Below are positions 3,226 through 39,996 of a DNA stretch of 64,000 nt, piece by piece (position 1 is the stretch's first letter; each line of letters opens with the position of its first letter). The stretch lies in NCBI RefSeq assembly GCF_018987235.1, contig NZ_CP072197.1:1116001-1180000 (forward strand), written 5' to 3'. Under the pieces are notes generated by a model. That model saw only the letters and a list, made by a program, of their open reading frames with translations. It did no database searches and was not told where the DNA came from. Position numbers and translations under genes: made by a program. This stretch comes from Lactobacillus crispatus (GTDB lineage Bacteria > Bacillota > Bacilli > Lactobacillales > Lactobacillaceae).

Positions 3226-4893
3226 CTAATTAATTTTAATTACTAAAGCTTCATATGGCTTCAATGAGATATTCTCTTCTAGTTTGCCATCTTGTGCAGA
3301 ATAATTGCTCAATACGAGTTGATAATTCTTATTTTGATATTGTTCGGGCAATGGTGCTACATGATCAGTACCATAGAAATTAGTGAAAACTAATATTTTT
3401 TTAGCTTCATCCTTCAAAAAACGTTCATAGGCAAAAATTTGTGGATCATCTTTTAAAAACATTCTAATATGGCCATCAGAAATCAGTTGTTCGTGCTTAC
3501 GCAACTTGATCAATTTTTGATAGTAAGCAAAAATTTCACCCTCGTGTAATTCTTTTTCAACATTAATTCTATCTTGATCTGTTGGTAAAAGCCATGGCTT
3601 TGATTCACTAAAGCCAGCAAATTTACTATCATCCCAGTGCATCGGCACACGAGAGTTATCTCGTGCTTTAGTTTTTACTATTGCAAATGCTTCATCATCG
3701 CTTATTCCCTTTTGTTTCAATGCCGCAAAAGCATTTTTAGCTTCAACATCTACATAATCATGAATTGAAGAATAATGTGGATCCATCATTCCTATTTCTT
3801 CGCCCATATAAATGTAAGGAGTTCCGCGCATACAATGTGTCGCAGTAGCAAGCATTTCGGCAGATTTCTCTCGATATTTACCAGTATCACCAAAACGGTT
3901 AAGGGCCCACGGCTGGTCATGATTGTTCCAGAACAAAGCATTCCAACCGCCACCTTGATCCATTTTTTCTTGCCATTCAGTAAATAAGTGCTTTAATTTC
4001 ATGAAATCAAACGGCTCTTTAGTCCACTTTTCACCGTTTTTATAATCGACTTTTAAATGATGGAAAGTAAAGACCATGGACAATTCATGCTCACTCGGCT
4101 TAGAGTACTCAATCGAATTAGCAATAGTAGTTGAAGACATTTCACCCACCGTAATTGAGTCAGGATCTTGACCAAAAGTAGCGCGATTCATTTCTTTTAA
4201 ATATTGATGCACTACTGCTGTATCAGTATAAAGACTCTTTTCCTGACTTGGATCACCAGTTGAATCAACTAACTTTTCATCCTTACCGGTCACGTTAATT
4301 ACGTCAAAACGGAAACCATGTACTCCCTTTGAACGCCAGAAGTTAATTACTTTGAACAATTCTTGACGAACTTCTGGGTTATGCCAATCGAGATCTGCTT
4401 GAGTTGGATCATATAAATGTAGGTAATAATAATCCGTATCACCAAATTTTGCCCAAGCTGGTCCACCAAACTTACTTTGCCAATTATTAGGCAAGGAGCC
4501 GTCAGGCTTAGCTTTCCTTAAGTAAAAGAATTTGCGGTACTTTTCGTCTCCTGCCAAAGCTTTTTTAAACCATATATTTTCGGTTGAACAATGGTTTAGC
4601 ACCATATCCAACATGACGCCAACGCCTATTTCTTTTAGCTTTTTAGTTAATTCCTCAAAGTCAGACATTGTGCCAAAGCGAGGATCAATTCGGTAATAAT
4701 CCGCAATGTCATAACCGCCATCATTCTGAGGGGATACAAAAAAGGGATTAAACCAGATCATATCAACGTTAAGCTTCTTGATGTAATCGATTTTAGCGAT
4801 GATCCCTGGAATATCACCTACTCCATCGCCATTAGAATCATAAAAAGATTTGGGATAAATTTGGTAAATTACTTTTTTGCCTAAATCCGTCAT
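3226..4893 (-). CDS. treC: Trehalose-6-phosphate hydrolase (alpha,alpha-phosphotrehalase)
   Basis: A 555-residue GH13 enzyme that splits cytoplasmic trehalose 6-phosphate into glucose and glucose 6-phosphate. The GH13 regions are visible: DMVLNH (96-101), GFRFDVIN with nucleophile D197, VGEM with acid/base E251, and NNHDQ with D326. Length is normal for TreC/oligo-1,6-glucosidase. The sequence alone would also allow an oligo-1,6-glucosidase, but the neighbours, a GntR regulator 9 bases upstream and a divergent PTS permease with a phosphotrehalase partner layout, make TreC the better call. It is co-transcribed with treR; its ribosome-binding site (AGGAGATAAAA) overlaps the end of treR. Confidence 0.92.
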   Translation of the reverse strand: MTDLGKKVIYQIYPKSFYDSNGDGVGDIPGIIAKIDYIKKLNVDMIWFNPFFVSPQNDGGYDIADYYRIDPRFGTMSDFEELTKKLKEIGVGVMLDMVLNHCSTENIWFKKALAGDEKYRKFFYLRKAKPDGSLPNNWQSKFGGPAWAKFGDTDYYYLHLYDPTQADLDWHNPEVRQELFKVINFWRSKGVHGFRFDVINVTGKDEKLVDSTGDPSQEKSLYTDTAVVHQYLKEMNRATFGQDPDSITVGEMSSTTIANSIEYSKPSEHELSMVFTFHHLKVDYKNGEKWTKEPFDFMKLKHLFTEWQEKMDQGGGWNALFWNNHDQPWALNRFGDTGKYREKSAEMLATATHCMRGTPYIYMGEEIGMMDPHYSSIHDYVDVEAKNAFAALKQKGISDDEAFAIVKTKARDNSRVPMHWDDSKFAGFSESKPWLLPTDQDRINVEKELHEGEIFAYYQKLIKLRKHEQLISDGHIRMFLKDDPQIFAYERFLKDEAKKILVFTNFYGTDHVAPLPEQYQNKNYQLVLSNYSAQDGKLEENISLKPYEALVIKIN

Positions 4894-29426: not shown

Positions 29427-30686
29427 TTACTTATAAAATGTTTCTTCTACTGCATGAGTAATCGCAATCTTATCATGAGCATAGGACAAACCGCCTTGAA
29501 TATAAAGCATGTATGGTTCACGTAAAGGGCCATCAGAAGAAAGCTCAATTGTTGATCCTTCAACAAAACTTCCCGAAGCCATAACAACTTCATCTTCGTA
29601 ACCATCCTGATGATATGGAATTGGGTCAACAAAAGAGTTCATAGGTGAATAATGTTGAATAGCCGCACAGAATTTTACCATCGGATCCGGCTCACCAAAA
29701 GTAACAGTTTGAACAATATCACTACGTGGATCACTCCATTTAGGTGAAACCTGCATCCCCATTTCTTCTAATAAGGCTGCAGTAAAGACCATACCTTTTT
29801 GAGCTTCACCAGTAGTATGAGCTGCCATAAAGAATCCTTGGTAGATATCGCGCAAATAACCCCAAGTTGCGCCTTCACCTTTTCCAGCTCCTGGCACTGT
29901 CAACCGTGAACCAGCACCATCAATTAAGTCTTGTCGCCCAACTAAGAAAGCTCCCCCTTTTACTAGACCTGCACCAGCATTCTTATAAAGGGAACCAGCC
30001 ATCATATCAGCACCATAAAAAGTTGGTTCTTCACATTCAGAGAATTCTCCATAACAATTATCAATAAAAATATTAACATCTGGACGAACTTCTTTAATGA
30101 ACTTAAGCATTGGCTTAATCTTAGCCATAGTAAAAGTCTTACGAGTTGCATAGCCTAATGATCTTTGAATTGCCACTACTTTAATTGAAGGATCCATGAT
30201 ATCTTTTTTAGCTTGATCATAATCAACCTCGCCGTCTTTTAATTCTGTAGTCTTAAACTTGATGCCCCATTCCTTCATGTTGCCTGGTTTATTGCCAGCT
30301 AAGCCAATAACTTCTTGAATAGTATCATATGGCGTACCCGTCAAATAATAAAGCGTGTCACCAGGACGAAGCATACTAAATAAACCAACAGTAATTGCAT
30401 GAGTACCTGAACCAAATTGTGGACGAACTAGAGCATCATCTGTTTTAAAATAGTCAGCATATATATCTTCAATCTTATCACGACCTATATCGTCGTAGCC
30501 GTAGCCTGTTGATGGAACTAGATCTTCTTCACCAACATGATGTTTTCTAAATAGGTCCAATACACGTTGTTGATTATACAAAACTTGTTCATCAATTTCT
30601 TCTAGACGAGGTTGAATCATTGATTCAACTTTAGTCACTTTATCGCTTAACTCTTTTGGTAAATTCTCTTTCCAAGAAAAACTCAT
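29427..30686 (-). CDS. PLP-dependent methionine gamma-lyase-like protein (YnbB, 'aluminum resistance' family)
   Basis: A 419-residue fold-type I PLP enzyme of the YnbB family. Seen are VRPQFGSGTHAITVGLF (about 87-103), IFIDNCYGEF (about 206-215) and MAGSLYKNAGAGLVKGGAFLVG (about 229-250), which contains the PLP lysine. The catalysed reaction is not established for the family; 'aluminum resistance' is an inherited label. It is 10 bases downstream of the ornithine decarboxylase gene, so the two are probably co-transcribed. Confidence 0.85.
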   Translation of the reverse strand: MSFSWKENLPKELSDKVTKVESMIQPRLEEIDEQVLYNQQRVLDLFRKHHVGEEDLVPSTGYGYDDIGRDKIEDIYADYFKTDDALVRPQFGSGTHAITVGLFSMLRPGDTLYYLTGTPYDTIQEVIGLAGNKPGNMKEWGIKFKTTELKDGEVDYDQAKKDIMDPSIKVVAIQRSLGYATRKTFTMAKIKPMLKFIKEVRPDVNIFIDNCYGEFSECEEPTFYGADMMAGSLYKNAGAGLVKGGAFLVGRQDLIDGAGSRLTVPGAGKGEGATWGYLRDIYQGFFMAAHTTGEAQKGMVFTAALLEEMGMQVSPKWSDPRSDIVQTVTFGEPDPMVKFCAAIQHYSPMNSFVDPIPYHQDGYEDEVVMASGSFVEGSTIELSSDGPLREPYMLYIQGGLSYAHDKIAITHAVEETFYK

Positions 30687-30696
30687 TTTTAACTCC

Positions 30697-32799
30697 CTAT
30701 TTATTTTTGATTACTTCTGCTTGTACGCATAAACTACCATTATTATTTTCGCTCAGATATACTCCCTGAATCTCTGGCACAAAACCAGGAAACTTTTCAA
30801 TAGCATGCGCCAAGACTTCAAAGTACTTTTGGTCTACTACTCCCCATTTTTCACCAGGTGCAACAATGAAAACTCCTGGTGGATACGGCAAAGCTCCTTC
30901 GGCAGCAATTCTTCCAACAACATTTTCTAGGTTGACCAGTTCATTTTGATCCTTTTTAAAAAGCTGATCAGCTGTAGCTGGTGTCATTTGATAGTCTTGC
31001 ATCCCTGATTTAGAAAATAGCTTTTGCTGTAATACAAAAGTATTATTTTCCTGATAGTACTCATGCATCTCTTGACACAACTGTTTCAGGGTATAGCCTT
31101 GATAACGCTTTGGATACTCATTATATAAAACCGGCAAAACATCTTTCATTAAGTCATCTTCTAGATAGTGTTTTTCAAAACTTAAAAAAGCTTCAAGTAA
31201 AGTATCTAGTTCTGCTTGACTATCTCCCGGTGTAAGTAAAAACAACAATGAATTCAAATCATTTTTAGCTCGAATAATATGATTTTCCATTAAGTATTCT
31301 GCCACTACCGCGCCTGGAATACCCGTTTTCTCATACTTTTCATTTTTTACATCAATCCCGGGAGTTTTTACCGTAATCTTCAATGGGTCAATCATTGCTT
31401 CGCCTGGAACCATTTTACGGAAACCGTGCCAATCCGTATTTTGTCCCATTTCCCAATATTCTGCATTGGTAGCCAATTCATCAGTCGAAATTTCGGCAAA
31501 ATTGTCAGGAACTAATGGCTTAAATAGCTTAGACTTTTTGAGTAGTTTTTTCCGCCATTCAATTCCCATTCGCAGAGTTTGATCCCACCACTTTTTATTT
31601 CCTGCTCCAGCAGTAACGTAGGAATTAACTGTTAATGAAGCATAAAGTGGGTATGCATAACTGGAAGTAACAAACTTCAGATAAGCATGATTAAAGTGCT
31701 TATGATCAACATATCGTTTTTGTCCTTTAATATGAGCATCCTTTTTTAGAATCTGTGACGCTTGAGCCATACCTGCTTGCTGTTTATGTAATGACTGAGT
31801 AACCAAAATACCTGGATCATCAGGACCCAAGTTAAGTAGAAGTGGTGATAAATGTCTCATAATTGGTACGAATTCTTCAAAGCCGCCCCAGGCACAGTCA
31901 AACAGAACATAATCACAAAGTTTACCGATTCGGTCAATAATCCATTGTGCATCATAAAAGACTCCATCATAGGTTTCTGCTTGTACGATTGCTAACCTAA
32001 ATGGCCGCTTAGCCTTTGCCTTTGCCGGATCTATCTTAGCTACTTCAGCTCTAATTTTATCTTCAGTTAAGAAGGCTGGATCCATTTCTCCAATTAGTCC
32101 AAGTGCATTTCGATCAGTTGGAATGTAGACCGGCTTTGCTCCGCTCATTACCAAGGCAGAATTATACAAAGATTTATGATTATTTCGATCAAATAAAACT
32201 AGATCGCCTTCAGATAAAAGTGCACTTGCGCAAATAGAATTAGCTGAAGTCGTTCCGTTGGTACAGAAGTAAACCTTATCTGCATGATAAGTTTTAGCAG
32301 CTTTCTTTTCTGCATTAAGTGGCGTTCCAGCATGCGTCATTGTATCCCCTAATTGAGGAACAGTATCACTTGTATCGGCAAACATTAGATTTTTACCAAA
32401 GAACTTATTAAAAACTACTCCGGCAGGATGTTTGTCATAATATTGCCCATTATGGTGACCCGGTGTAGTAAATGAAATTGGTTTTGCTTGAGCAAAATTG
32501 ATCAAGTCGGTCAAAAAGCCTGGCACCATTTGCTTTTCATATTCTGTAGCTTTCTGAGTGACTTGGTCTTCATCTACCTGATCAGTTACTTTAATCAATG
32601 GAATCGGAAAGCCAGATTGTTCTCTTAGAGCTTCTGCTTGTTTTATTCCTAATGCATCATCATTTTTGACAACAATTGCGGCAAGTTCAGCACTATTTTG
32701 TACATCGCCAATTGGAATTGACGACCAACCTTTCATCTTATTAACATTGACGCCATTTCCAATGGCAATTTTCAAAAAATCCATCCTTTTTCTTTCCAT
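30697..32799 (-). CDS. Ornithine decarboxylase (Orn/Lys/Arg decarboxylase family)
   Basis: A protein of about 700 residues in the bacterial PLP ornithine/lysine/arginine decarboxylase family, with an N-terminal wing (to about 105), a PLP core beginning TTPGHHNGQYY, DTSDTVPQLGD and CTNGTTSANSI, the PLP lysine in SLHKQQAGM (K342 from the longest start) and a C-terminal domain. It converts ornithine to putrescine and uses up a proton. Size and sequence fit the inducible ornithine decarboxylase type; lysine is the alternative substrate. The start is uncertain among 32808 (GTG), 32799 and 32784. The divergent amino acid exchanger at 33017 would import substrate and export product. Confidence 0.87.
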   Translation of the reverse strand: MERKRMDFLKIAIGNGVNVNKMKGWSSIPIGDVQNSAELAAIVVKNDDALGIKQAEALREQSGFPIPLIKVTDQVDEDQVTQKATEYEKQMVPGFLTDLINFAQAKPISFTTPGHHNGQYYDKHPAGVVFNKFFGKNLMFADTSDTVPQLGDTMTHAGTPLNAEKKAAKTYHADKVYFCTNGTTSANSICASALLSEGDLVLFDRNNHKSLYNSALVMSGAKPVYIPTDRNALGLIGEMDPAFLTEDKIRAEVAKIDPAKAKAKRPFRLAIVQAETYDGVFYDAQWIIDRIGKLCDYVLFDCAWGGFEEFVPIMRHLSPLLLNLGPDDPGILVTQSLHKQQAGMAQASQILKKDAHIKGQKRYVDHKHFNHAYLKFVTSSYAYPLYASLTVNSYVTAGAGNKKWWDQTLRMGIEWRKKLLKKSKLFKPLVPDNFAEISTDELATNAEYWEMGQNTDWHGFRKMVPGEAMIDPLKITVKTPGIDVKNEKYEKTGIPGAVVAEYLMENHIIRAKNDLNSLLFLLTPGDSQAELDTLLEAFLSFEKHYLEDDLMKDVLPVLYNEYPKRYQGYTLKQLCQEMHEYYQENNTFVLQQKLFSKSGMQDYQMTPATADQLFKKDQNELVNLENVVGRIAAEGALPYPPGVFIVAPGEKWGVVDQKYFEVLAHAIEKFPGFVPEIQGVYLSENNNGSLCVQAEVIKNK

Positions 32800-32864
32800 T
32801 TTGTCCACGAAACCGTTTTACATATTGCAAAACTTTAAAAAGTCTTTATAATTTTTCTACAGTA

Positions 32865-32900
32865 TAGCGTACTTTTTGCATTCTTTCTTAAAATACGCTA
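32865..32900. promoter_or_regulatory. Inverted repeat in the decarboxylase/exchanger intergenic region
   Basis: TAGCGTACTTT (32865-32875) and AAAATACGCTA (32890-32900) are inverted repeats with 10 of 11 positions matching. Lying between two divergent genes, they are a reasonable operator for a shared regulator. Confidence 0.45.
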
Positions 32901-32923
32901 CAGCTGAAATTATTATATAAATA

Positions 32924-33009
32924 TTGGAGGTTTTTAACAAGTGCATTTGCCTTGCTCGCCTCCGAGAACAGCTATGTCAACACAACGATAAAATAGCTTA
33001 ACTTGGAGG
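32924..33009 (+). promoter_or_regulatory. Mutually exclusive leader hairpins before the exchanger gene
   Basis: CCTCCGAG (32959-32966) can pair with GGAGG of the leader-ORF ribosome-binding site (32924-32930, 7 bp) or with CTTGGAGG of the exchanger ribosome-binding site (33002-33009, 8 bp with one G-U). The second form is extended by AGCTAT/ATAGCT (32970-32975 with 32993-32998), separated by a symmetric 3x3 internal loop. Only one can form at a time. This suggests translational control of the exchanger by movement of a ribosome on the leader ORF. Confidence 0.6.
32941..32991 (+). CDS. Probable 16-residue leader peptide of the exchanger gene
   Basis: A GTG-start ORF encoding MHLPCSPPRTAMSTQR, with GGAGG ten bases upstream and a TAA stop 25 bases before the exchanger start. 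The codons for Ser-Pro-Pro-Arg hold the anti-Shine-Dalgarno CCTCC, so a ribosome paused at Pro-Pro-Arg would cover it and free the exchanger ribosome-binding site. Leader peptides before ornithine decarboxylase/antiporter genes are known in proteobacteria (SpeFL), but this peptide does not resemble that one. Translation is inferred from the ribosome-binding site and layout only. Confidence 0.55.
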   Translation: MHLPCSPPRTAMSTQR

Positions 33010-33016
33010 AATTTTT

Positions 33017-34489
33017 ATGTCAGAAACAATCGAAACAGTCAATTTCGAACCCGGCAAAAAACACTACATGTCATGGCCGGTTATTGCATTGATCGACTTC
33101 GTAACGATTATCAGTTTTGAAAATATTTTTTATCCATTTCAAAATCAAGGTTTATCAGTAGTTGTATCTTGGATTTTCCTACTCTTCGCCTACGTTATTC
33201 CTTATGCATTGATGTCTAGTCAAATGGGCCTAACCTTTACTGATCAAGCCGGTGGATTGGCATCTTGGGTACGTCATTCATCTAACGATACACTGGGCTA
33301 CTGGACTTCATGGATGTATTGGGTTCAAACTGTTCCTTATTTGGTCGATGTTTCTAATTCAGTTATTGTGTCCTTTTCATGGATTATTTTGGGCAACAAT
33401 ACTTTAGACAAGCATATGTCTACTTTTTGGTTTGGGATTTTGACCTTTGTCATTATTCTTGCCTTTATTTTGGTTGAAAATGCAATCAAGAATTCACTTG
33501 AACTACTATCTTTAATTGGTGGTGGTGCAATGTTTATTATGTCTATGCTCTTTGTTTTACTTGCTGTTTGGTCAGTTATGCATGGACACCATATTGCTAC
33601 CCAACCATTTAACTTGGCCGCATTTAAGCCATCATTTAGTTTACGTTACTTTTCTACCACTGGTCTTCTAATCTTCGCCATGTCTGGTGCAGAACTTGCT
33701 GCTCCTTATATCGTACAAATGCGCGATCCAAAACACGAATTTCCTAAAGCAATGTGGATGTTGGCTTTGATGACTGGATTCTTGACTATCTTCGGTACTT
33801 TGGCTTTAGCAATGTTTTTCAATGCTCATCATATTCCACATGATTTCAAGATGAACGGACCTTACTATGCATTTCAACTACTAGGCGAAAGCCTTGGTTG
33901 GGGCAAAGTATTAATGTACATCTTTGCTGTTGTTCAAGCCCTCTTTATGATGGCCCAATTAGCAGTTTTACTTGATGCATCAAGTCGTGTCTTTGCCGGT
34001 GACGTTGCCGACAAATTCATGCCAAAATGGTTAACTGGGAAAAAAGACAAAACAGGTCGTCCAGTTCACTCGTACACTTTAACTTGTGGTTTAGCCTTAT
34101 TCTTGCTTTTACTTACTGGGACTTTGCCAAATATTAATTCAATTTACAATTGGCTTTTAAATATCAATGGTATTATTTCCCCATACAAGACTTGTTGGGT
34201 ATTCTTCGCTTTCATTATGTTACGGATGCACCAAGAGAAGTTCCACTCAGATTATGTCTTCGTTAAAAATAAGACTGGTGCCCTTATCATGGGCTGGTGG
34301 TGCTTAATCTTTACCTTTATCTGTGCTACTTTAGGATTTATTCCTCAAGAAGCAGAAGCAACATTCGGTAGCGCAGCCTTTAATCACCAATTAATTATGA
34401 ATATTATTACAGTTATCGTACTCTTTGGCTTAGGCTTCTTACTACCATACTTAAGAAAACGCGAAGAACGTAAAGAAATGAATATATAA
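33017..34489 (+). CDS. APC-family amino acid exchanger, probably ornithine/putrescine
   Basis: A 490-residue APC-superfamily transporter with about twelve hydrophobic segments, of the glutamate:GABA antiporter-like branch (N-terminus YMSWPVIALIDFVTIISFENIFYPFQNQGLS; FAMSGAELAAPYIVQMRDPKHEFPKAM near residue 230). Its position, divergent from ornithine decarboxylase, points to ornithine/putrescine exchange: together the pair would consume protons and generate a proton motive force. Strong ribosome-binding site TTGGAGGAA, which can be masked by the leader structure. Ends in a long bidirectional terminator. Confidence 0.82.
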   Translation: MSETIETVNFEPGKKHYMSWPVIALIDFVTIISFENIFYPFQNQGLSVVVSWIFLLFAYVIPYALMSSQMGLTFTDQAGGLASWVRHSSNDTLGYWTSWMYWVQTVPYLVDVSNSVIVSFSWIILGNNTLDKHMSTFWFGILTFVIILAFILVENAIKNSLELLSLIGGGAMFIMSMLFVLLAVWSVMHGHHIATQPFNLAAFKPSFSLRYFSTTGLLIFAMSGAELAAPYIVQMRDPKHEFPKAMWMLALMTGFLTIFGTLALAMFFNAHHIPHDFKMNGPYYAFQLLGESLGWGKVLMYIFAVVQALFMMAQLAVLLDASSRVFAGDVADKFMPKWLTGKKDKTGRPVHSYTLTCGLALFLLLLTGTLPNINSIYNWLLNINGIISPYKTCWVFFAFIMLRMHQEKFHSDYVFVKNKTGALIMGWWCLIFTFICATLGFIPQEAEATFGSAAFNHQLIMNIITVIVLFGLGFLLPYLRKREERKEMNI

Positions 34490-35129: not shown

Positions 35130-36501
35130 GAAACTGTCAAATCTTTTGTGTAAATAGATCTTTCTCGTAAATTGATTTTTTAATTATTTATTTAATCAAA
35201 GTAGGATTCTAAGGTGTCCTGAACCTGACCAAAGCCTTTATGAATTCGATTGAAATAACGGTCATTGTAGCTCATTGCCTGGATGCCAATAAATGCATCA
35301 AGCGACTGTTCAGTTGGAAATTCTGCCTTAGGCTTAGCTTTACGCTTGATGACGTTGTTAAAGGATTCAATCATATTGGTTGAATAAATTGAAGCTCTGA
35401 TTTGTTTGGGATAATTGTAGAAGACTAGCAGATCGGGCTCAATTTCCTTCAAACCTTTGATGACATGGCTATAAGCTTTATTCCATTTGGCATAGAATTT
35501 GTGCAAGACAGCTGCAGCTTCTTTTTTGCTTGTCTGTTGATGTATCTGCTTGAATTCGTTCATGATCTTTTCACGATCGTCGACGCGTACTTTAGCGCAG
35601 ATATTGCGCATGACATGAACCAGGCAGCGTTGAAAATGAGCTTTAGGATAAGTCCTGGCCAAGGCTGTTTTCATGCCAACAACACCATCAGAAAGAAAAA
35701 GCTCAACTTGCTTCAAGCCTCTGGACTTCATGTTTTGAAGCATCTCTGTCCAAACTTCAATGTTCTCACTAGGAGCAATGCAGTAGTCAATGACTTCCTT
35801 ATGTCCATTAGGTTTAATGCCAATGGCAATATATACTGCTTCACGCTCAAACGTTTCTCGGCGCAAAGGAAGGTATGTCGCATCCAAATAGACACAGAAA
35901 AACTTGTCGCTTAGCTTGCGCTTGTGATAAGCCTCAATCTTGGGGAGCATCTGCTTGGAAATATTTGATACTTGAGCTGGACTATAATGACTGCCATACA
36001 TTTTCTCAATCAAGTCAGCGATTTCTCTGGTAGTTACGCCTTTGGAGTATAGCTTGATAATCGTGCTTTCCAAAACATCAGAGTGCTGCTTGTAGTCAGG
36101 CAGCGTGTGCTGATGAAACTGACCGTTGCGGTCTCGAGGCACTTGCACTTCAATTGGTCCAAACTGGGTATCAACCTTGCGGAAATAAGCACCATTTCTA
36201 GAATTGCCAGTATTCCAGCCATTTCTGGCATAGGGATCATAGCCTAGAAAGGCAGTCAACTCAGCTTCTAGCAAGTTATTAACAGCCTGTTGTAGCTCTT
36301 TGCGCAATAAATCATTTATTTTGTCTGGATTGAATAGAGCTTGAGCAAAATCTTTGGTAAAATCATTCATGAAGGAGTTCTTCTTTCTGTATGTGTTTTT
36401 TTGTTCAAACCAATCATACGAGAAAGGAACTCCTTTTTCTAATGTTTAAAGAAATAAATTTAAGGAATCATTCATCCTTACACAAACTATTTTACAGTCT
36501 C
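35130..36501 (-). mobile_element. IS256-family insertion sequence, copy 4
   Basis: 1372 bp, reversed relative to copies 1-3; target duplication AAAAACAA at 35122-35129 and 36502-36509. It lies between a PPOX gene and pepV without breaking either. Confidence 0.97.
35192..36370 (-). CDS. IS256-family transposase (copy 4)
   Basis: 392 residues, identical to copy 1, with intact D163, D228 and E335. Confidence 0.97.
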   Translation of the reverse strand: MNDFTKDFAQALFNPDKINDLLRKELQQAVNNLLEAELTAFLGYDPYARNGWNTGNSRNGAYFRKVDTQFGPIEVQVPRDRNGQFHQHTLPDYKQHSDVLESTIIKLYSKGVTTREIADLIEKMYGSHYSPAQVSNISKQMLPKIEAYHKRKLSDKFFCVYLDATYLPLRRETFEREAVYIAIGIKPNGHKEVIDYCIAPSENIEVWTEMLQNMKSRGLKQVELFLSDGVVGMKTALARTYPKAHFQRCLVHVMRNICAKVRVDDREKIMNEFKQIHQQTSKKEAAAVLHKFYAKWNKAYSHVIKGLKEIEPDLLVFYNYPKQIRASIYSTNMIESFNNVIKRKAKPKAEFPTEQSLDAFIGIQAMSYNDRYFNRIHKGFGQVQDTLESYFD

Positions 36502-38033: not shown

Positions 38034-38125
38034 AAAAAAGCTTATATACTGATCTTGTTTTAATGCAGTATATAAGCTATAGAAAGTTGCTAGTGTCATA
38101 TATCACTAGTGACTTTTTTATTTTT
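38034..38125. terminator. Two hairpins between pepV and the permease remnant
   Basis: AGCTTATATACTG/CAGTATATAAGCT (38039-38051 with 38066-38078) has its T run on the minus strand and would end leftward transcription. A weaker CTAGTG/CACTAG stem (38090-38109) followed by TTTTTT would end pepV rightward. Confidence 0.65.
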
Positions 38126-38960
38126 CCAATAAAATTTCTTCATTATTTTTCTTAGATTTTAGCCAAAAATGATGTCCCAAGTAACAAATAGCTACAAAAG
38201 GAATTGTATAGTACAATGCTACTCTTTGAGTTGGATCGAACCAGATTAACACACAAGAAAGTAGGCTTGATATAAATGCAAAATATGGAATTACAGGATA
38301 CCATGGGGTCTTGTACTTCAATTCACTGAGTTGATGACCTGAGTTTAAAAATGCCCTTCTAAACTTCAATTCTGACCATGCAATCGCCGTCCAAACGAAT
38401 ACAACAGCTAATCCAGAAATAGAAACTAATACTAGATAAACCGTCGAGGCAGCAACTTTACTAGAAATCAAAGCAAAAATTCCGCCTAACATACTTACTA
38501 CTAATGACAATACTGGAATACCACGCTTATTAGTTTTGGTGAATGCTTTAGGAATTGTTCCTTCGTTGCCCAACGACCAAAGCATTCTAGTTGAAGCATA
38601 CAAACCTGAATTGGCCGCAGAAATAATTGCAGTCAAAACTACGAAGTTCATAATATTTGCAGCAAATGGCACATGAATTAGGTCAAGCACATACACAAAT
38701 GGGCTTTGAGTTACTCCAGCCGTATGATAAGGAATTAATGCAGCCATAACTACAATTGAGCCAATAAAGAAGACAATTAAACGCCAAAGTGTTGTCCTAA
38801 TTGCTTCAGGAATAGCTTTCTGAGGATTCTCTGCTTCACCAGCCGTAATGCCAATAAGCTCAGTTCCTGAAAAAGCAAAGTTTACTGTTAGCATTGTTGT
38901 AAATACTCCACCCCAGCCGTTGGGGAACCAGCCATTTTTATAAAAATTAACCAATCCCAA
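38118..38960 (-). pseudogene. Amino acid permease, C-terminal part only
   Basis: 280 codons of an APC-family amino acid permease, beginning GLVNFYKNGWFPNGWGGVF and carrying about seven of the expected twelve membrane segments, with FAFSGTELIGITAGEAENPQKAIP near the start. The N-terminal portion is missing. It is joined directly to a truncated mmuM start, so it is probably the S-methylmethionine-type permease that accompanies mmuM. Not functional as a transporter by itself. Confidence 0.88.
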
Positions 38961-39118
38961 TGTGCTTGATAAACTTTGCTCAACTGATCAATCAAAGCTG
39001 TTGCGGTCCATAATTTATTATTAGTATCTACGCCTTGTTTTTCCAATTCATACGACATTGCACCATCTAGGACTAATCCCTTATTTTTAATCTGTTCAAG
39101 CAAACCCATTTTTTTCAT
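38961..39118 (-). pseudogene. Truncated homocysteine S-methyltransferase, N-terminal fragment
   Basis: The first 50 or so codons (MGLLEQIKNKGLVLDGAM...KVYQAH) are a clear paralogue of the intact mmuM at 22158-23147, position for position. After YQAH the match stops and permease sequence begins in another frame. No ribosome-binding site precedes it, and crcB ends 10 bases upstream. It is the left edge of a deletion that fused the two genes. Confidence 0.88.
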
Positions 39119-39128
39119 GCTGTCAACA

Positions 39129-39506
39129 TTATTTTAGTAAATTTCCTAAATAATAGCCGCAATAAACTAGAACCAAGCCACCCAGATATGATGACACCGC
39201 GTAGAATACAAGACCACGATAATTTTTACTCTTATAAAGCTCAACTAATTCTGTATTCATAGTGGAAAAGGTTGTATAGCCACCCATTACTCCAGTTCCT
39301 AGTAATGCATAAATAAAAGTGTTAGCACCAATTCCAAAAATCAAGCCTAAAATTAGTGCTCCAGTTAAGTTAATAAACAAAGTCGGTGTAGGTAAATTAG
39401 AAAATTTATTACCAATCCATTCCCAATGCTTTTTACCATAATTAGTAATAGCATAACGAAGCATAGCTCCAATTGATGCACCAATTCCTGCAAGCAAAAA
39501 ATTCAT
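39129..39506 (-). CDS. crcB: Fluoride channel subunit (CrcB/Fluc), second of a pair
   Basis: A 125-residue small membrane protein with four hydrophobic segments and the Fluc signatures [12 protein letters not shown] at the N-terminus, [11 protein letters not shown] (channel Asn, about 45) and [15 protein letters not shown] (about 72-86, with the TFS track). Fluc channels export fluoride as dual-topology dimers; paired genes like these normally form heterodimers. It overlaps the upstream crcB by 4 bases (ATGA). Confidence 0.93.
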
Positions 39507-39901
39507 CGTGTATTCCTTTCCTTTCTTACTAATTGACCAACTTTTTTACCAATTTTCATTCCTAACATAGCAAAAACAAAGCCAAAAATAATTGAGCTAA
39601 AGTAATAAATTACTGCTTCGATTGGCAAATTAGCCTGCATATTTTTTAAAACATCAAGATTAAAAGTTGAAAAAGTAGTAAATGCACCTACAAAGCCAGT
39701 ACCTAATCCAACTACAAGCCATTGCCTAATCTCTTTAGTTTCAATAAAAAAGTAGGTGAAAAACGCTAATAAAAAGCAACCTATGACATTACCCCAAAAA
39801 GTACCATAATAGCTGAAGTTTGCATTTAAACCAGCACGTGCCATACCACCAAAAAAGGCGAAAATAGCGATACTAATGTAATTAATAAATTTTGAATTCA
39901 A
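39503..39901 (-). CDS. crcB: Fluoride channel subunit (CrcB/Fluc), first of a pair
   Basis: A 132-residue Fluc protein with [24 protein letters not shown] (channel Asn) and [15 protein letters not shown]. The start is taken as TTG at 39899-39901 because GGGAGGA lies 6 bases upstream; the more upstream in-frame GTG is inside that sequence. It follows a fluoride riboswitch at 39915-39996. Confidence 0.92.
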
Positions 39902-39914
39902 ACAGATTCCTCCC

Positions 39915-39996
39915 ACAAAAAAACGTCTACTCTACCCCTATCGGATAAAGTAGACGTCATTAGATTTTACTCGGTTAATGGCGAACGTCATCACCT
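39915..39996 (-). ncRNA. Fluoride riboswitch (crcB motif) with overlapping terminator
   Basis: On the minus strand GGTGATGACGTTCGCCATTA (39976-39995) carries the conserved fluoride aptamer core, followed by ACCGAGTAAAATCTAATGACGTC. The 3' part of the aptamer merges into a terminator: ACGTCTACT (39949-39957) pairs with AGTAGACGT (39923-39931), followed by seven T. Fluoride binding should prevent the terminator and switch on crcB. Confidence 0.92.

Follow-up and report, generated by a model that had tools for sequence, protein, structure and literature searches.

The stretch analysed here, referred to as the window, comprises 64,000 nucleotides (nt) of the Lactobacillus crispatus genome (NZ_CP072197.1, positions 1,116,001 to 1,180,000), and our subject is a short leader open reading frame (ORF) that precedes an amino acid exchanger gene within it. 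The exchanger gene (33017..34489, plus strand, ATG at 33017) codes for a GadC-like protein of the APC superfamily of 490 amino acids, with a Pfam PF13520 score of 106.5 bits and a profile match to GadC (4dji). A profile of 13 members of the exchanger family matched GadC 4dji at 1.6e-23, the single PDB match at an expectation value (E) ≤ 0.001, and the protein scored under the cut-offs of all five NCBIfam antiporter/transporter models that it matched. Divergently, on the minus strand, lies the gene for a putative ornithine decarboxylase of the lactobacillar family TIGR04318 (30697..32808; 1281 bits vs cut-off of 950; best solved match 1ord). This gene neighbourhood suggests that the exchanger swaps ornithine for putrescine.

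The leader ORF (32941..32991, plus strand) has 16 codons, starts with GTG, reads MHLPCSPPRTAMSTQR and stops with TAA at 32989-32991; its own Shine-Dalgarno (SD) sequence, GGAGG, was read at 32926..32930, and duplex energies of the leader SDs were computed in the orthologues. The segment CCTCCGAG (32959..32966) extends over Pro7-Pro8-Arg9, with the Pro-Pro codons at 32959-32964, and represents both the 5' arm facing the exchanger SD and the proposed arrest site, while the 3' arm, CTTGGAGG (33002..33009), includes the exchanger SD GGAGG at 33005-33009. RNA folding returned a stem of 8 base pairs (bp) between these arms, followed by a symmetric internal loop of 3 + 3 nt and an inner stem of AGCTAT (32970..32975) with ATAGCT (32993..32998), lengthened by three further pairs; the leader stop codon is located within the apical part. 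All of this, i.e. the 16-codon ORF with its own GGAGG, the pairing of the Pro-Pro-Arg segment with the exchanger SD and the stop inside the hairpin, agrees with an earlier sequence-only reading of the locus. That reading had also proposed a competing 7-bp hairpin with the leader's own SD, which is possible on paper, missing from the minimum free energy (MFE) fold and not conserved. Among orthologues the pairing of leader SD and Pro codons was at chance level (own mean of -6.96 vs foreign -7.42 kcal/mol, foreign arms being better in 52% of cases), and this candidate was rejected.

The MFE of the window hairpin was -25.4 kcal/mol (z of -2.1 against dinucleotide shuffles, with 5 of 200 shuffles equally stable), and its stability, taken alone, is modest. 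A stable hairpin on the exchanger SD is also what one would expect of an RNA-only element, a riboswitch or thermosensor with an incidental ORF; we find this barely credible in view of the codon-position pattern of leader variation (see below) and the variability of the loop and apical region among orthologues. Moreover, no Rfam family reached its gathering score on the leader, the four sub-threshold matches having E of 0.84-4, and a known Rfam cis-regulatory RNA was rejected on these grounds. No intrinsic terminator was found on either strand in 32750-33060 of the window. The same interval contained, on both strands, four promoter-like sites vs 0.9 expected, one of which (TTAAAA-17-TATTAT, 32888..32916, plus strand, 9 of 12 consensus matches) would serve the leader/exchanger mRNA. 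Of the 65 orthologues, 44 had TTATA 27-29 nt 5' of the leader start and 51 had it anywhere in the examined stretch (13.4 expected); therefore the mRNA probably begins just 5' of the leader SD, with the transcription start about at that SD.

The comparison was based on 88 loci with DNA and an exchanger identity of at least 60%, which gave 68 distinct upstream regions. A short ORF with the proline motif was in place before the exchanger in 65 of them, a conservation well beyond what the single sequence could reveal. The set of 65 omits three regions: L014 and L036, where the leader is displaced upstream by about 330 nt (near 4673) and 203 nt, correspondingly, and L048, in which no leader ORF was seen. 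The leaders of L014 and L036 are otherwise typical, and their longer leader-exchanger stretch is possibly a natural loss of coupling. Exchanger starts of L054 and L055 were assigned by hand, and L096, with its GTG changed, was given a weak ATG. The latter region (around 1381-1479, in a genome of the gasseri/johnsonii group) is of interest in its own right as a natural variant of the conserved start codon, where translation could start instead at an internal TTG or ATG. In a control at the same loci, an SD-led short ORF with KPP, CSPP, KHPG or K[AGE]PG preceded 61 of 65 exchangers vs 1 of 222 other genes with an upstream gap of at least 80 nt, the motif set having been derived from the exchangers themselves; the single control match is probably the 5' piece of the split exchanger of L054.

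The leader peptides read MHLPCSPP- in the window's group, MKxNSSLLTLKPPN in Companilactobacillus, M-LNTLMIVLKPPN in the gasseri/johnsonii group, -HKPPN in Liquorilactobacillus, M-SNKHPG in Ligilactobacillus, MRPFRNKGPG in Lapidilactobacillus and MQHNKAPG in Lacticaseibacillus absianus, the group names being partly assigned by resemblance of the peptides. The eight leaders of the acidophilus group comprise seven distinct stretches, in which codons 2-8 had 1, 0 and 6 variable columns of 7 at codon positions 1, 2 and 3. Pairwise codon differences there were 72 synonymous vs 6 non-synonymous (25% synonymous expected), and counted 406 vs 73 in Companilactobacillus, 119 vs 58 in the gasseri group and 16 vs 12 in Ligilactobacillus; shared ancestry inflates such pairwise counts, the column counts being less affected. 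Comparison of the orthologues shows, as far as codon usage can tell, that the leader peptide is selected for its amino acid sequence up to the proline motif, C-terminal to which the peptides diverge in both sequence and length.

The residue before the two-residue motif is Lys in 53 of 65 leaders, Ser in eight, Arg in two, and Leu and Gln in one each. The motif is followed by N (38), G (13), K (7) or others (7). It is preceded by exactly 11 codons in 40 leaders and by five or six in another 17, within a range of 5-15. The Arg codons at positions 9 and 16, considered earlier as a possible link of the leader with arginine/ornithine supply, did not keep that role: Arg9 is retained in just two of eight leaders of the window's group, the other six having E, S, Q or G, and sensing through Arg codons was rejected. 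The Pro codons sit exactly in the switching arm, as they would in an amino acid starvation attenuator, where a shortage of charged tRNA leaves the A site empty at Pro (or Lys) codons and opens the exchanger as an importer; transporter leaders reading proline supply exist elsewhere (mgtL-type). Synonymous change nevertheless preserves residues other than Pro and Lys (HLPCS, NSSLLT), which a tRNA-charging device would not require; in several leaders the motif contains only one Pro (NKHPG, NKAPG; NKSP in paralogues), and all four Pro codons are in use among leaders, so that we consider starvation sensing improbable.

Pairing of the exchanger SD with the Pro region was followed in 63 of the 65 orthologues, L090 and L094 not being folded since the motif expression missed RPP. 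The mean pairing probability was 0.66 vs 0.13 with the intervening stretch shuffled, and 56 of 63 orthologues were above their own shuffles. Duplex energies of the arms averaged -13.4 kcal/mol for own vs -9.2 for all foreign partners, arms from other clades being better in 17.6% of comparisons. For the column and slide tests the SD register was picked by match to GGRGG, which leaves the columns beyond the SD as the informative ones; the Pro codons themselves were 0.84 paired, a value partly built in by this choice. Beyond the SD, the fractions of paired cells and of two-sided changes peaked in register (0.60 and 0.125 at slide 0, 63 of 65) vs 0.32-0.54 and 0.03-0.09 in slid registers. The column test, performed with 54 of 65 orthologues (those with PP and an SD score of at least 4), exceeded column shuffles at pp+7 and pp+9 to +12 and did not at pp+2, +5, +8 and +13, whereas pp+0, 1, 3, 4 and 6 had too little variation to tell. 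The compensating changes between the two arms that the sequence-only reading called for are thus present, and comparison shows, within the reach of such tests, the codons of the Pro motif to be the 5' arm of a hairpin hiding the exchanger SD. Exchangers lacking the leader or the pairing, which that reading had named as damaging to it, are confined to one of 68 regions and eight of the 63 folded, correspondingly. On this comparative evidence, selection acts to conserve the leader at the level of the peptide as well as of the RNA.

The distance from the motif to the exchanger SD was nearly constant, with a median of 46 nt, an interquartile range of 44-48 and a standard deviation of 3.0 in the 60 of 65 orthologues with a distance of up to 60 nt, the five outliers reaching 167 nt; in the same 60 the standard deviation of the stop-to-SD distance was 13.4 nt. 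Moreover, L007 and L026 have the leader stop 23 nt into the exchanger gene, and in L102 it is directly adjacent to the exchanger start. With the stop position free, and inside the exchanger gene in two cases, release at the stop can therefore hardly be the shared step, as judged from these alignments. Release arrest of the SpeFL type, at the stop codon, was rejected. Stops near or overlapping the exchanger start in some orthologues would also agree with plain translational coupling, where translation of the leader melts the hairpin with neither arrest nor sensing, and for which a leader SD and the hairpin alone would suffice. We rate it as quite improbable, since it could do without the peptide sequence, and without a constant spacing of motif and SD alongside a variable stop.

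Of the named loci whose exchanger has an identity of at least 60% (n = 58), 53 contained a decarboxylase homologue, which was divergently upstream in 52. The remaining five belong to Liquorilactobacillus or a Lactobacillus sp. relative, with the decarboxylase homologue elsewhere in the genome; the exchanger in these five genomes retains its leader (displaced in L036), and the unlinked ornithine decarboxylase (ODC) has no Pro-motif leader. Of the ODC upstream regions (n = 54, the window included), three had a short ORF with an SD and a loose match to the Pro motif, and in none did it look like an exchanger leader. The idea that the decarboxylase carries a leader of this type was rejected, with 0 of 54 ODC upstream regions being family-like and no Pro motif in seven genomes. 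As the exchanger keeps the leader when the decarboxylase is unlinked, and ODC has no such leader, we conclude from this comparison that the leader belongs to the exchanger and not to the decarboxylase.

Forty further regions yielded one orthologue (L123), 23 regions with a visible Pro-motif leader and 16 with no recognised leader; five of the 23 (L105-L108 and L132) are 64-65% identical, over the 60% cut-off, and were counted with the paralogues nonetheless. Leaders with a related core (QNKPPS, RNKPPC, KNKSP, NNSPP, FNPPP) precede exchangers that are 47-65% identical. Pairing with the SD was above shuffles in 20 of 23 (0.57 vs 0.14), these shuffles preserving base composition only. Beyond Lactobacillaceae, similar leaders were met in two other families of the order, with L193 carrying MAYRNKPPSWAAQLNNY and both L195 and L196 ..SDRNKPPS..; a second member of the L193 family with a like identity of about 53%, L194, had no visible leader. 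In the window's own family L216 carries MRRNKAPGSQRVD and L215 has no visible leader. No leader was found in any of 20 more distant exchangers (30-40% identical). Since RNAalifold on alignment A2 gave no pairs, the search model R1 was of sequence only. Among 251 genomes of the family it matched 76 at E ≤ 0.01, and of the 30 loci returned an exchanger was present in 21 and absent in nine; one of the nine, L173 (3.7e-5), lies inside a gene that we take to be dnaB. R1 missed the window's own leader, being a weak detector beyond the KPP type that cannot exclude other gene types. As far as tested by these searches, the leader is found before one exchanger family.

Among ten paralogue contexts of the window's genus, a TIGR04318-type decarboxylase was present in three (L143, L148 and L149); the other seven, together with all five contexts from other genera, had no decarboxylase homologue, which speaks against ornithine as a common signal. 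One ornithine signal for all leaders is therefore unlikely.

It should be added that L143 (C1:678000-689500) is a second decarboxylase/exchanger pair of the window genome: its exchanger has an internal TAG, its leader with QNKPPSS is still visible, and its decarboxylase matches the family model only from position 66. Between the two genes lies an ORF of 392 amino acids, the first 60 residues of which are identical to those of the ORF at window 35192-36370, presumably transposase-like. Near the decarboxylase of L148 lies a gene that weakly matches methionine gamma-lyase-like pyridoxal phosphate (PLP) enzymes. Three exchangers with FNPPP leaders adjoin hflX (L145 2529-3818, L146 6518-7789, L151 1829-3094), the gene for a ribosome-rescue GTPase; this adjacency is perhaps due to chance, yet odd beside a putative ribosome-arrest leader.

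Taken together, we consider it likely that the leader is a translational attenuator, in which the short nascent peptide arrests the ribosome at the Pro motif and the exchanger start is thereby freed. The short ORF is SD-led (65 of 68), the downstream SD is sequestered from within it, and no intrinsic terminator was found in the window. By default, the ribosome would read through the leader and the hairpin re-form behind it, leaving the exchanger poorly translated. Under the inducing condition the nascent chain, of about 8 residues in the window and about 13 in most relatives, would arrest the ribosome with a motif proline held in the P site, during elongation and not at the stop codon. A ribosome at the second Pro codon (32962-32964), given its usual footprint, would cover up to about 32978, and with it the whole 5' arm, so that the exchanger SD and start would be freed with room for a second ribosome. 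Both the arrest and its trigger are inferred; pairing, peptide selection and spacing agree with the original idea that the Pro codons sequester the exchanger start and that a pause at Pro-Pro would open it. The likeliest single candidate for the trigger is an exchanger substrate, which in the branch linked to the decarboxylase would be ornithine, a pick about which we remain rather doubtful.

The trigger could also be global, with stalling at Pro-Pro set by the activity of EF-P/YebC, polyamines or pH, and not by a ligand that binds the nascent peptide. A common trigger would account for the core that the paralogues share. Polyproline stalls are relieved by EF-P, KPPP, HPPP and RPPP being strong contexts according to PMC4176338, and PMC10746267 reports that CadC, which belongs to the lysine decarboxylase system of E. 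coli, needs EF-P via a polyproline motif. Such a sensor does not account for the conservation of N-terminal residues beyond the Pro motif, for single-Pro cores such as HPG, APG, GPG and EPG, or for Ser, a weak context before PPP, preceding PP in the window clade, and we regard it as unlikely. The attenuator with peptide-dependent arrest remains our preferred reading.

Several observations weigh against it. On the peptide side, the Liquorilactobacillus/HKPP set had 78 synonymous vs 314 non-synonymous differences, the residues preceding HKPPN not being conserved and mainly KPPN or KPPK itself being retained. The window clade is without the Lys that precedes the motif in 53 of 65 leaders, and by analogy with E. 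coli its SPP is not obviously a strong staller. According to PMC4176338, the strong contexts before PPP include Lys, His and Arg, and the weak ones include Cys, Thr, Gly, Leu and Ser; stalling at XPPP and XPP correlated poorly there, so that PPP contexts bear loosely on SPP.

On the RNA side, eight of 63 orthologues (L075, L023, L084, L047, L031, L054, L044 and L042) pair at ≤ 0.16, as three of the 23 paralogue regions (L107, L118 and L138) do not pair. With 39 representatives slide 0 was barely above slide -1 (paired 0.606 vs 0.583; two-sided 0.120 vs 0.103). RNAalifold gave no consensus pair on a MAFFT alignment of 28 KPP-type sequences, in which the SD registers are unaligned; in the first alignment, A1, the window clade had its Pro codons out of place. 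The 16 further exchanger regions with no recognised leader, 33-51% identical, count in the same direction.

Furthermore, conservation of the prolines could in part be RNA-driven, CCNCC itself being anti-SD. In PP leaders the third position of the first Pro codon lies opposite the centre of the SD, where pairing would strengthen the stem; it is paired in 32 of 54, not above shuffles (p of 0.11). Where KPP is replaced by KHP, KAP, KGP, KEP or KSP, the leaders retain proline and Lys in the absence of a CCNCC run. The unpaired third bases and the KxP leaders suggest that the prolines are held at the amino acid level. Asn after KPP could likewise be partly RNA-driven, because its codon sits in the stem.

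A wider proposal, which we put forward tentatively and hold to be possible rather than probable, is that leaders with the core N-K-x-P-[P/G/N/S/A], from which CSPP and NPPP would be derived, form a family of undescribed arrest peptides sensing small molecules in at least three families of the order. They would act with as few as 8-13 nascent residues and without the Arg of the RAPP class (see below), and paralogous copies in one genome, with differing N-terminal sensor parts, would each tune their own GadC-like exchanger.

Other features of the window neighbourhood are as follows. Directly downstream of the decarboxylase is a gene for a methionine gamma-lyase-like PLP enzyme (29427-30686, minus strand, PF06838). 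Further away, fragments of a homocysteine S-methyltransferase and an S-methylmethionine permease overlap in different frames at 38118-39118 (minus strand) and look like a decayed pair. A fluoride riboswitch (RF01734, 39944-40004, minus strand, 45.9 bits) stands ahead of small ORFs at 39503-39916 and 39129-39506, which we take to resemble a crcB pair.

Searches of the open-licence full-text literature, a coverage from which subscription papers and preprints largely fall out, showed no description of this leader among the papers listed, and its novelty is accordingly provisional. In PMC10987492, on arrest peptides, a term search of the available text met no mention of lactobacilli or antiporters and a single one of sucrose permease. 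The leader offers a compact and testable case of putative nascent-peptide control of a lactobacillar amino acid exchanger, a kind of control of which these searches met no example. The natural alignment offers dozens of variants with compensating changes, in which arrest core, sensor part and hairpin are separable at once. The leader is also relevant to the conditions under which lactobacilli turn on the exchangers paired with ornithine decarboxylase, and hence possibly to putrescine output. If the arrest needs a ligand, a chain of eight residues would be, to our knowledge, among the shortest sensors.

Translational attenuators with leader peptides are represented by the ermC/ermB and cat type. 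Like these, the system considered here has a leader ORF with its own SD, a downstream SD within a hairpin, a proposed stall site on the 5' arm and no terminator found; unlike them, there is no adjacent resistance gene, the Pro codons of the leader are themselves anti-SD, and the family precedes amino acid exchangers. The ornithine-sensing SpeFL of gamma-proteobacteria, which blocks RF1-mediated release according to excerpts of PMC8429421, likewise belongs, as a leader peptide, to a system of ornithine decarboxylase and exchanger. In our case, however, the exchanger and not the decarboxylase carries the leader, the leader's stop position is free and may fall inside the exchanger gene, and the output would be release of the SD. 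CadC/EF-P of the E. coli lysine decarboxylase system shares the tie of polyproline translation to an acid-resistance decarboxylase/antiporter system (PMC10746267, in part), whereas CadC is a transcription regulator with no cis leader.

A further relation is to the RAPP/RAPG/RAGP peptides (ApcA, ApdA, ApdP and SecM), with a core of x-P followed by P or G, to be compared with K-A-P-G, K-G-P-G and K-P-P-N/S, and with a variable N-terminal part. According to PMC12992588, the RAPP/RAPG class has a P-site Pro and an A-site Pro or Gly, with some small preceding residues tolerated in ApdA and ApdP and Arg irreplaceable in ApcA, ApdA, ApdP and SecM. Lys (or Cys/Asn) occupies the position of this Arg in our leaders, if the second motif residue is the P-site proline. 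They are, moreover, short and without visible signal or membrane segment, the 5-15 codons before the motif being judged too short for one, and are tied to an APC exchanger and not to Sec/YidC protein-localisation genes, although some RAPP-like members regulate other genes as well (PMC10987492, in part). By analogy, the leader may work like the RAPP/RAPG class while failing a defining feature of it, the Arg.

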